Source: an uncultured Micrococcales bacterium
Lineage (GTDB): Bacteria; Actinomycetota; Actinomycetes; Actinomycetales; Microbacteriaceae
Assembly (NCBI GenBank): GCA_903866485.1
Contig: CAIPNT010000014.1
Coordinates: 1-7,064 of the forward strand
Length of the DNA stretch: 7,064 bases
Direction of reading: 5' to 3'
The notes under the pieces were generated by a model. That model did not search any database. It was not told the DNA's origin and was given only the letters and a program-made list of their open reading frames with translations. Position numbers and translations under genes: made by a program. This document shows, one piece after another, positions 3,097 through 7,064 of the stretch; positions within the stretch are counted from its first letter, which is position 1; each line of letters opens with the position of its first letter.

Positions 3097-3546
3097 ATGA
3101 ATGAACAGCACAGCGAATCACCATTCAACGAGTGGCTTCTCCCACGCTTCTCCAGTTTTCTTCCGGTTTTGCTCATCTATCCGACGCTATGGCTAACCTT
3201 TTTGCCGATTGATGAGACAGTTGGCGTGATTTCGGGTGTCGCTGTCACGGCTTTGGTGCTGGCCATGATGATCGGCAACGCTCCCAACATCAAGGTGTCT
3301 GACGGTTGGTTGCAGCTGGGCAAGGCCAAAATAGAGATCAAATATATTTCTACAATCGAATTGATCTCTGAAGAGGACAAATTTGCCGTGCGTGGTCGCT
3401 TGCTCGATTCGCGAGCCCACATATTTTTTCAAGGATCAGTCAAACCGCTGATCAAGATAAACCTCGATGACCCGCAGGATCCAACGCCGTATTGGCTGTT
3501 TTCTACTCGTAGACCTGAGCAGTTAGCTAAAGCTCTGGGCTTTTAG
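3097..3546 (+). CDS. DUF3093 family membrane protein
   Basis: Protein of 149 residues. Two adjacent hydrophobic segments (about 17-37 and 41-60) form a membrane hairpin, leaving a C-terminal domain of ~90 residues that probably faces the cytoplasm. That domain ends in the family signature DDPQDPTPYWLFSTRRPEQL (124-143), preceded by LDSRAH (103-108). DUF3093 proteins are actinobacterial and uncharacterised. A homologue lies divergently next to dut in mycobacteria (Rv2698, from memory), the same arrangement as here. The bases AGAGG touch the ATG directly, too close to act as a normal Shine-Dalgarno, so leaderless translation is more likely. The stop codon overlaps the stop of the convergent DUF4193 gene. 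Confidence 0.9.
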   Translation: MNEQHSESPFNEWLLPRFSSFLPVLLIYPTLWLTFLPIDETVGVISGVAVTALVLAMMIGNAPNIKVSDGWLQLGKAKIEIKYISTIELISEEDKFAVRGRLLDSRAHIFFQGSVKPLIKINLDDPQDPTPYWLFSTRRPEQLAKALGF

Positions 3547-3833
3547 CTTTCACACTCGATGCAAACCTTGCCATACTTGCCCTTTTTGGCAGACAGCAAA
3601 GAGTGGTGCTTCACAATGAAGCACTCGCTGCAAGTGAATTCATCGTCTTGAGGTGGTAACACCACTACATCAAGGTCTTCAGAGACAACGTCAGGAATGG
3701 CAAAACCTTCACCGTGCTCAGACTCATCTGTGTCGACAAGACCGGCAAGTTTGTCAGGCGTGCGCTCTTTGATGGCCTCAATCGACTCGGTGTCGTCGTC
3801 GTTCTTTCGAGGTGCATCGTAATCGGTGGCCAT
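3543..3833 (-). CDS. DUF4193 family zinc-ribbon-like small protein
   Basis: Acidic protein of 96 residues with ATG at 3833. Residues 1-65 are rich in Asp and Glu and probably flexible. The C-terminus has two Cys pairs, C68-SE-C71 and C91-IE-C94, separated by 19 residues that are rich in His and Lys (VKHHSLLSAKKGKYGK). This is a likely treble-clef or ribbon zinc site and is the hallmark of DUF4193. The family is almost confined to actinobacteria and is a recurring neighbour of dut, DUF3093 and sigA-region genes. A good Shine-Dalgarno, AAAGG, lies 8 nt upstream, and a plausible promoter is seen further upstream. No function is known. The architecture, an acidic tail plus a small zinc knuckle, would suit an RNA-polymerase- or nucleic-acid-associated factor, but that is speculation. 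Confidence 0.92.
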   Translation of the reverse strand: MATDYDAPRKNDDDTESIEAIKERTPDKLAGLVDTDESEHGEGFAIPDVVSEDLDVVVLPPQDDEFTCSECFIVKHHSLLSAKKGKYGKVCIECES

Positions 3834-3852
3834 TCGCCTACCCTTTCGGTTC

Positions 3853-3881
3853 AGTATCGTGAGGCGTGCATAGTGTGCAAC
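3853..3881 (-). promoter_or_regulatory. Putative promoter of the DUF4193 gene
   Basis: On the minus strand GATACT (3858-3853) is a fair -10. TTGCAC (3880-3875) lies 16 nt upstream as a weak -35, and GTTGCA would fit a 17-nt spacer. The -10 lies about 20 nt before the ATG, leaving room for the AAAGG ribosome site. The -35 region falls inside the first copy of the split direct repeat, so a repeat-binding factor could control this promoter. Confidence 0.4.
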
Positions 3882-3886
3882 AAATA
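3866..3886. repeat. Split direct repeat, copy 1 (candidate operator)
   Basis: Reads GTGCATA, 6 nt, AACAAATA. The same two blocks in the same order recur 99 nt downstream with a 3-nt gap. This copy covers the presumed -35 of the DUF4193 promoter. Confidence 0.5.
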
Positions 3887-3887
3887 T

Positions 3888-3900
3888 TTGCTAATAGCAA
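3888..3900. repeat. 13-bp perfect palindrome in the divergent intergenic region
   Basis: TTGCTA-A-TAGCAA, 6-bp perfect arms around one central base, directly beside repeat copy 1. It is too short for a terminator and lacks a T-tract. A small operator site is possible. The left arm plus centre (TTGCTAA) recurs at 4005-4011 near the sepH ribosome site. Confidence 0.45.
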
Positions 3901-3964
3901 CCTTGCAACGCCATAACAGTCAAAATAGTGCCAAGTTGGCAGAAATCGGGTGACGGCGCGCCTA

Positions 3965-5032: not shown

Positions 5033-6156
5033 GCAAAACTGCCAAAGCGCAGCAGAGGAACCTGCAACTCGCTCGGACTGATTCCTCCGTGTTGGCCGAT
5101 CATCCGCAGGCTCTGCGGCTTGCAGAAGCCTCGGTGATAGCAGGCATAACCTTCGAGACTAACCAAAAAAAGGTCGGGCAACTTATCTGCGTTTGCGATA
5201 GTCGCAGAGTCATACCAGCCAGCTGCAATGAGGTCACCTGCCGTGGCCACAATCACCCGAAGGTCAAGTGCTTCGACTAGCTGCTCTTTGGCAACTGAAG
5301 CCGCTTCGGGGCTGCTGAAATAAAGGAAGTTGCAGCGTGGGTCGCCGCCGACGGAAATCAGACCTTCGATTTCAAACTCATCCAGCATGACTTGGTTTTC
5401 TGGCTGCACGTCTACGATTCCATGATCTGCGGTCAAAAGCATGCCACAGTCGGCTGGCAGCATTGCCGCAAGGGATTTGATCGCGGCGTCGAGGTCTTCG
5501 AGTTTGTTGAGCCACTGCATCGAGCCAACACCGAGGCTGTGCGCAGTTTGATCAAGCTCGGGAAAATACAAATAGCTCAGTGAACGCTGCCTCGATTTGA
5601 GCTGCGCAGCTGCCGTGCTTACTCGTTCGTCAAAGCTGCGGGCCGCCAAATACTCGGTTCCGCGCATGTTCAGTCGAGTGAAACCGCTGTCTGCATACTC
5701 TCCCGGGCCGATTGCATAGGCTGCGACGCCTTTAGACTTTGCTCGCTCGGCGACGGTCTCATTCGGTTGCCAGCGTTCTGGAATTGCCTCGTGGTTCCAG
5801 CCGCTAAGCATGTTCACCGCAGCGGAACTTTGCCTATCAAAAACCTGATAGCCAAGGATGCCGTGCCCCGCGGGGCTCAGTGCGGTGCCAAAACTCGTGA
5901 TCGCAGCAGCGGTCGTCGACGGAAATACCGTATTGATGCTCTTTGACGCGGCAAGCATCGTGTTTAGAAATGGCGCGTGACCGGCAGCTTTGCGCAAGTT
6001 CTCGCTTCCAAGGCCGTCGACCAAAACTACGCAGGCGGAACGAGTCTTCTTTAGGGCAAGTCGGTTGTCTTGGCCCGTGATGGCGCCTAGCGCACTGATA
6101 AACACATCGGAAAGCCTCCCAAGTGTTTTGGGTGCGGCAGGTAGCATCGTAGGCAT
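5029..6156 (-). CDS. Type I phosphodiesterase/nucleotide pyrophosphatase family protein (alkaline phosphatase fold)
   Basis: Putative metal-dependent phosphodiesterase or phosphatase of the alkaline-phosphatase superfamily; the substrate is unknown. With ATG 6156 it has 375 residues, normal for the family. Metal-site and catalytic motifs are complete: VDGLG (46-50, Asp47), FPSTTAAA (78-85, with Thr81/82 as the likely nucleophile region), SPAGHGILGY (94-103), LDQTAHSLG (201-209, Asp202 and His206), TADHG (242-246, Asp244 and His245) and GQHGG (354-358, His356). No signal peptide is evident, so it is probably cytoplasmic. The frame could begin at 6240, but that would run into parC and adds an unfamiliar N-terminus; MPTMLPA at 6156 resembles family starts. 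GTG at 6159 is an alternative. It lies divergently to parC and convergently to sepH, an arrangement I recall from other actinobacteria. Confidence 0.9.
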   Translation of the reverse strand: MPTMLPAAPKTLGRLSDVFISALGAITGQDNRLALKKTRSACVVLVDGLGSENLRKAAGHAPFLNTMLAASKSINTVFPSTTAAAITSFGTALSPAGHGILGYQVFDRQSSAAVNMLSGWNHEAIPERWQPNETVAERAKSKGVAAYAIGPGEYADSGFTRLNMRGTEYLAARSFDERVSTAAAQLKSRQRSLSYLYFPELDQTAHSLGVGSMQWLNKLEDLDAAIKSLAAMLPADCGMLLTADHGIVDVQPENQVMLDEFEIEGLISVGGDPRCNFLYFSSPEAASVAKEQLVEALDLRVIVATAGDLIAAGWYDSATIANADKLPDLFLVSLEGYACYHRGFCKPQSLRMIGQHGGISPSELQVPLLRFGSFA

Positions 6157-6161
6157 CACCA

Positions 6162-6168
6162 ATAGTCT
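6162..6168. promoter_or_regulatory. Putative overlapping divergent -10 elements between phosphodiesterase gene and parC
   Basis: TAGTCT at 6163-6168 fits a plus-strand -10 for parC, leaving a leader of about 25 nt. On the minus strand GACTAT (6167-6162) would place transcription start at the ATG at 6156, giving a leaderless mRNA; no Shine-Dalgarno is visible there. The 43-nt gap between the genes must hold both promoters unless they lie inside coding sequence. No good -35 was found. Confidence 0.3.
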
Positions 6169-6199
6169 GCCACAGCAGGCAACAAGTCCCAGAGAGCCC

Positions 6200-7064
6200 A
6201 TGAAAAACGAGTTCCCCGAAGAGCACCGCATCGTCGACATCGAACTGTCGAAAGAGATGCAGGAGTCGTTTCTCGAATAGTCCTACTCGGTCATCTATGC
6301 CCGAGCCCTGCCTGACGCCCGTGATGGCCTAAAACCGGTGCACCGTCGCATCGTTTATCAGATGGGCGAAATGGGTCTTCGACCTGAGAAGGGGCATGTT
6401 AAGTCGGCCCGTGTCACCGGCGAGGTTATGGGAAAGCTTCATCCACACGGTGATGGCGCCATTTATGACGCACTTGTTCGAATGGCTCAGCCATTTAGTC
6501 TTCGAGTGCCGCTCATAGATGGCCACGGAAACTTTGGCAGCCTGGATGACGGCCCGGCAGCGGCCCGTTATACCGAGGCAAAACTGTCACAGGCCGCAAT
6601 GCTCATGAACGATGGATTAGACGAAGACGTCGTCGACTTCAAGCCAAACTATGACGCGCAGCTGTCAGAACCCGAGGTGCTTCCGGCAGCATTTCCGAAC
6701 CTGCTGGTCAACGGCGCAAGCGGCATCGCGGTTGGCATGGCAACTAACATGCCTCCACACAACATGCGCGAGGTCATCGCTGCGGCTCGCTTCTTGCTAG
6801 AGAATCCGCAGGCCAACACCGAAGACTTGATGCGCTATGTGCCCGGGCCAGACCTGCCAAACGGCGGCATAATCATGGGCCTTGATGGCGTGCGTGACGC
6901 TTATGAAACCGGGCGTGGCGTGTTCAAGACCCGAGCTCGCGTGAGTGTAGAAAGCGTGTCACCGCGCAAGTTGGGTCTGGTTGTCACCGAATTGCCTTAC
7001 CTGGTTGGTCCTGAGAAGGTCATCGAAAAAATTAAGGATGGCGTCAACAGCAAAAAATTGCAGG
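6200..7064 (+). CDS. parC: DNA topoisomerase IV subunit A (ParC/GyrA family), interrupted by an in-frame TAG and cut by the window edge
   Basis: Breakage-reunion subunit of a type IIA topoisomerase, which works with ParE to decatenate chromosomes. From ATG 6200 the product reads [20 protein letters not shown]..., then a TAG at codon 27, and then continues in the same frame without another stop to the edge (288 codons in total). Family motifs after the stop are intact: [18 protein letters not shown] (34-51), [17 protein letters not shown] (74-90), [19 protein letters not shown] (108-126, catalytic Tyr124), and the [22 protein letters not shown] block. ParC is favoured over GyrA by the [15 protein letters not shown] N-terminus and by the sepH neighbourhood; gyrA normally sits beside gyrB. 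The Shine-Dalgarno is weak (AGAGAG). Restart at GTG 6338 or ATG 6362 would lose the conserved N-terminal arm. The gene may be genuinely broken or the base may be a sequence error. Confidence 0.88.
6278..6280 (+). other. In-frame amber codon inside parC
   Basis: TAG stands at codon 27, where GyrA/ParC proteins have a conserved tyrosine (LDY in E. coli GyrA, LNY in E. coli ParC; here [14 protein letters not shown]). One base change (TAG to TAC or TAT) restores the expected protein. Both flanks are in the same frame, so this is a substitution, not a frameshift. Confidence 0.95.

Follow-up and report, generated by a model that had tools for sequence, protein, structure and literature searches.

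In Streptomyces, topoisomerase IV is described as needed for circular chromosomes; mycobacteria and corynebacteria are described as having neither parC nor parE, presumably relying on gyrase for decatenation (PMC3905888). By analogy with Streptomyces, a true knock-out of topoisomerase IV would probably be costly for a relative as well; its real loss is nevertheless not unthinkable. For the A subunit of gyrase, E. coli GyrA with the substitution Arg32Ala is listed without supercoiling activity (PMC4018983). Closest to the locus studied here are intact ParC proteins of the Rhodoluna type, such as database protein P0037 and the ParC of sister genome G058, both of which comprise 805 residues and carry a tyrosine at position 27. 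The parC-like gene described in the following lies in a window of 7,064 bases, by which we mean the whole stretch of DNA that was analysed. It is like these two proteins in frame and start, and its product differs from them at 2 (P0037) and 9 (G058) of 287 residues. In contrast to both, its codon 27 is a TAG and the gene is truncated. The window spans contig C14 of its assembly from end to end, so the gene is truncated at the contig end at position 7064, 786 bases past the TAG.

The source assembly, G000, comprises 1,081,770 bases in 192 contigs, is 67.32% complete and very probably belongs to the genus Rhodoluna. For one member of this genus, the laboratory strain Rhodoluna lacicola MWH-Ta8, gene replacement has been described (PMC11577799). 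Genes in the window are arranged in the order aconitase (cut), DUF3159, DUF3710, dut, DUF3093, DUF4193, sepH (DUF3071, which we take to be sepH), phosphodiesterase and the 5' part of the parC-like gene; each of the eight other genes gave a Pfam family match in one stretch. In the ParC fragment, identity to the nearest sister species among those compared is 97%, but at the DNA level it is only about 77% over the stretch. Consequently, dating of the stop by synonymous changes was useless. As a separate observation, positions 3834-3908, which immediately precede the DUF4193 gene, still align with sister genome G009 (82% DNA identity over 3467-3915) and are perhaps a conserved promoter or leader.

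A preceding interpretation of this DNA, made from its letters alone and referred to here as the sequence-only reading, had placed an in-frame TAG at codon 27 of a parC gene, between conserved ParC/GyrA flanks. This was borne out: the frame starts with the ATG at 6200, 26 codons precede the TAG and 261 stop-free codons follow it, reaching the last whole codon before the contig end (Table 1). The two in-frame internal start codons it had named, GTG at codon 47 and ATG at codon 55, are both present, and dut, the DUF3093 gene and sepH do terminate in TAG as it had stated. Since both flanks of the TAG are conserved, a chance stop in a non-coding frame is ruled out; only 9 of the 287 non-stop residues differ from the nearest sister species. 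The motif containing Tyr124 (6569-6571) presumably has a catalytic role. The uninterrupted frame that a working ParC requires is, however, broken at codon 27.

Table 1. Coordinates of the interrupted parC-like frame and its parts within the window.
Feature	Position	Strand	Basis
parC-like gene, 5' part (type IIA topoisomerase subunit A, topoisomerase IV type)	6200..7064	+	Pfam, NCBIfam on relatives; truncated by contig end
In-frame TAG, codon 27, tyrosine in relatives	6278..6280	+	Frame reading and alignments
26 conserved codons preceding the TAG	6200..6277	+	2 of 26 residues differ from nearest sister species, 0 of 26 from P0037
261 open codons following the TAG, including predicted catalytic Tyr124	6281..7063	+	Translation and alignment
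GTG codon 47, possible but poor internal start	6338..6340	+	Codon in frame; no Shine-Dalgarno-like run by eye
ATG codon 55, possible but poor internal start	6362..6364	+	Codon in frame; no Shine-Dalgarno-like run by eye

With respect to family, positions 6338-7063 matched Pfam PF00521 (DNA_topoisoIV) with 305 bits against a cut-off of 31 (1e-90), and this match to the breakage-reunion domain places the product among the A subunits of type IIA topoisomerases. Intact full-length relatives miss both gyrA equivalog cut-offs (768-769 versus 902 and 746-749 versus 877), whereas the assembly's own gyrA, located on contig C138, clears them with 1183 and 1115, respectively. The gene is of ParC type in that it is distinct from gyrA and represents a second paralogue beside a true gyrA. 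At the same time, the relatives clear only the subfamily model NF004044 of NCBIfam, 'DNA topoisomerase (ATP-hydrolyzing)' (855-858 versus 654; own gyrA also passes with 787), and not the curated parC equivalogs (parC_Gneg, 539-547 versus 628.9; parC_Gpos, 530-535 versus 813.25). Thus, the name parC rests on lineage and databank naming. Own gyrA and the window belong to one family with 53-55% identity, and gyrA carries a tyrosine at the equivalent place. It contains an RGGKG stretch, found with RGG alone as query, while P0037 has neither RRGG nor a match to the GyrA-box pattern used; that pattern also missed own gyrA. A GyrB-like partner adjoins parC in sister genome G058, where a gyrB/parE-type gene of 693 amino acids (L062:6649-8730), hereafter parE, follows directly on the opposite strand, so that the two genes converge. 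This partner clears NF004189 (gyrB subfamily) and misses both the gyrB and the parE equivalogs.

The residue replaced by the stop is strongly conserved. That a tyrosine is found at this site in GyrA and ParC had been stated in the sequence-only reading, and two data sets agree with it. All 109 distinct aligned loci carry the tyrosine; the alignment comprised 110 loci (29 of the genus, the best 80 of 565 confirmed relatives from a genome collection, and own gyrA), two of which, L026 and L067, are the same contig. A database set was formed by 248 proteins, the best-ranked ones listed out of about 8,000 that each search had scored; 3 of the 248 begin downstream of the site. Tyrosine occupies the site in 244 of the 245 covering proteins, and in all 49 of the closest full-length proteins among the matches listed. 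The sole exception among these 245, P0239, is a 289-amino-acid fragment of a ParC/GyrA relative with serine at this place.

Comparison with sister genomes, which had been proposed together with the original observation, set the stop apart. Among the 66 remaining genomes of the genus, 62 gave a long parC match; these include all 22 genomes with a completeness of 90% or more and a contamination of no more than 5%. G005 adds a fragment that covers the site; G018 and G052 gave a gyrA-like match only and G044 no match. None of the 63 sister genomes with a match (62 long, one fragment) has a stop inside it. P0037, which stems from a contig of 24,327 bases, is intact as well. Window and P0037 have G86, A195 and V214 in common, residues that the 48 other close full-length proteins listed all lack. 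Because of these residues, and since there are only two differences besides the stop, P0037 probably belongs to the same lineage as the window. The sole difference between them that is possibly derived in the window is A194, which occurs in 6-7 of the 49 close full-length proteins and is absent from P0037. Judged by its sequence, the fragment shows no decay besides the stop. Thus, among the sequences searched, the TAG is private to the source assembly and isolated in an otherwise conserved gene fragment.

One explanation for such a pattern is a very recent real nonsense mutation that inactivates parC, in a cell in which gyrase decatenates or as an allele that is rare and doomed. It would account for a base that differs cleanly from all aligned relatives, and for a fragment without any other lesion. 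However, parC is found in every one of the near-complete genomes of the genus, and the nearest sequence among those searched is intact. We therefore consider a recent nonsense mutation unlikely, if far from negligible.

The remainder of the assembly bears on the same question. The sequence-only reading had pointed to a second, complete parC or gyrA as a means to judge the locus, and only one of the two turned up: gyrA is whole on C138, with 845 amino acids from its likely start, and is the sole other relative, while a second parC was not found as far as the 67%-complete assembly reaches. A DNA search of the assembly for a second copy or haplotype of 6100-7064 returned 19 matches: the region itself, two within gyrA, and 16 short ones (15-32 bases) that were taken as chance. 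A search of the assembly for the 3' half of parC likewise gave only gyrA, at 35% identity, and parE was not found. The sole PF00204 match, on contig C38, is gyrB, being 93% identical to gyrB of sister genome G026; the other end of the gene lies on C138 (97%), so that gyrB is split over two contigs. Compared with parE of G058, the two pieces on C38 and C138 are only 39% and 53% identical. Missing parE and a missing 3' half of parC are also expected from a real loss of topoisomerase IV and hence speak against a mere error. A recent nonsense mutation is furthermore compatible with the presence of the gyrase genes and has a precedent in the mycobacteria and corynebacteria described without parC and parE (PMC3905888). 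However, G000 likewise gave no match to the gene that lies two places beyond parE in G058, while this gene is present in 5 of the 5 other genus genomes searched, source G058 included. Since parE, the 3' half of parC and this gene are missing together, their absence fits a gap in an assembly of this completeness, which weakens the case for a real mutation. The absence of the 3' half of parC and of parE is thus probably due to an assembly gap after 7064, and a loss of topoisomerase IV deduced from the missing parE was rejected.

If the stop were real, it might be tolerated, i.e., a suppressor or near-cognate tRNA might read the TAG often enough to make ParC. The conserved frame past the stop would agree with this, and a suppressor tRNA gene could lie in the roughly one third of the genome that the assembly lacks. 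Stop codon usage was surveyed on 41 of the 192 contigs against 1,164 reading frames from sister genomes, yielding 180 gene regions on 33 contigs with 56,908 aligned codons. The 41 contigs are not a random choice (the window, 20 tRNA-bearing contigs and 20 spread by number), and the survey needs a sister protein with at least 45% identity, so that lesions in other genes are missed. Twelve stop columns were detected, and the TAG of parC is the only one read as lying inside a gene body. The other 11 were set aside by eye, as they lie upstream of the gene start, opposite a neighbouring gene or within the last residues. Further in-frame TAGs inside genes, which the sequence-only reading had suggested to look for, were not read in any of the 180 gene regions. 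Among 146 readable gene ends, 70 are TAA, 65 TAG and 11 TGA. Global reassignment of TAG, previously held to be unlikely on the basis of three terminal TAGs, is rejected on this much broader basis, given that 65 of 146 genes end in TAG and that 1 of 12 stop columns lies inside a gene body. For the same reason an efficient suppressor would probably be harmful. A tRNA with a CUA anticodon, another earlier suggestion, was seen neither among the 27 tRNAs, one tRNA-Tyr (GUA) included, that the 67%-complete assembly yielded, nor among the 40 tRNAs in 60 of 67 stretches of G026. RNA structure just after the stop is not unusual either (z -0.95). Taken together, readthrough at this codon appears very improbable.

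Translation might instead restart at GTG 6338 or ATG 6362 and give rise to a shortened, working ParC. Both codons are in frame, and the predicted N-termini of two ParC relatives in the database, P0050 and P0200, fall on the residue equivalent to codon 55. However, their predicted start could equally be caused by gene calling at a contig edge, and an upstream lesion could explain it as well. By eye, no run resembling a ribosome-binding site is present in the 20 bases before either codon, and the 26 codons preceding the stop are still conserved. Residue 27 would lie within the N-terminal arm, and either start loses this arm together with Arg35. We assume that Arg35 of the window corresponds to Arg32 of E. 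coli GyrA, which agrees with the offset of 3 seen in an alignment to a full-length gyrase A chain. Since the alanine variant of this counterpart is listed as inactive, a short enzyme would, by analogy, be unlikely to work. Restart is hence scarcely credible as an explanation.

Four options had been envisioned for the TAG beforehand: a base-call or assembly error, a recent nonsense mutation, readthrough and internal initiation. The first of them is best supported and the second retains some standing, while the suppressor tRNA found no counterpart among the anticodons and restart is unlikely. On the sequence evidence, we thus regard the TAG as probably a single-base consensus or assembly error and not a lesion of the living cell. 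This view is based on the fragmentary assembly, the nearby contig break in the same gene, the intact nearest sequence, the lack of decay and a further lesion on contig C112. There, a frameshift at C112:9063 (L154) interrupts a gene for a PdtaS-type histidine kinase; the contig ends 321 bases away, and identity to the sister protein is 83% and 87% on the two sides. The frameshift is likely a second assembly error, although it could be real. By eye, two other frameshift candidates were attributed to artefacts of ORF calling, L207 because its split coincides with a likely gene start and L163 because of a tRNA stretch. Sporadic consensus errors in fragmented assemblies have the same appearance as the parC TAG: a single isolated lesion, close to where a contig ends, in a gene whose sister copies are intact. 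One might envision that read coverage at the site was thin or strain-mixed, leading to a wrong consensus base or to the base of a minor variant; the same coverage may also have broken the contig. However, the rest of the contig is clean and the stop rate is low (1 in 56,908 codons), which indicates that errors are uncommon in this assembly. Because of this low apparent error rate, a real mutation retains about a quarter of the weight.

If the stop were both real and fixed, a free-living, genome-streamlined Rhodoluna would be losing topoisomerase IV now and separating its chromosomes by gyrase alone. While this seems very improbable, it would mean that a free-living actinobacterium had been caught just as it begins to lose topoisomerase IV. 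The stop is likely a slip of sequencing or assembly, as in the preferred explanation, and hence ordinary. The case mainly calls for caution: where a fragmented assembly shows a lone in-frame stop in a core gene, the reads should be checked before recoding or gene loss is deduced. Under the preferred explanation, the organism itself would be expected to produce ParC at its normal full length, which is also predicted for its sisters.
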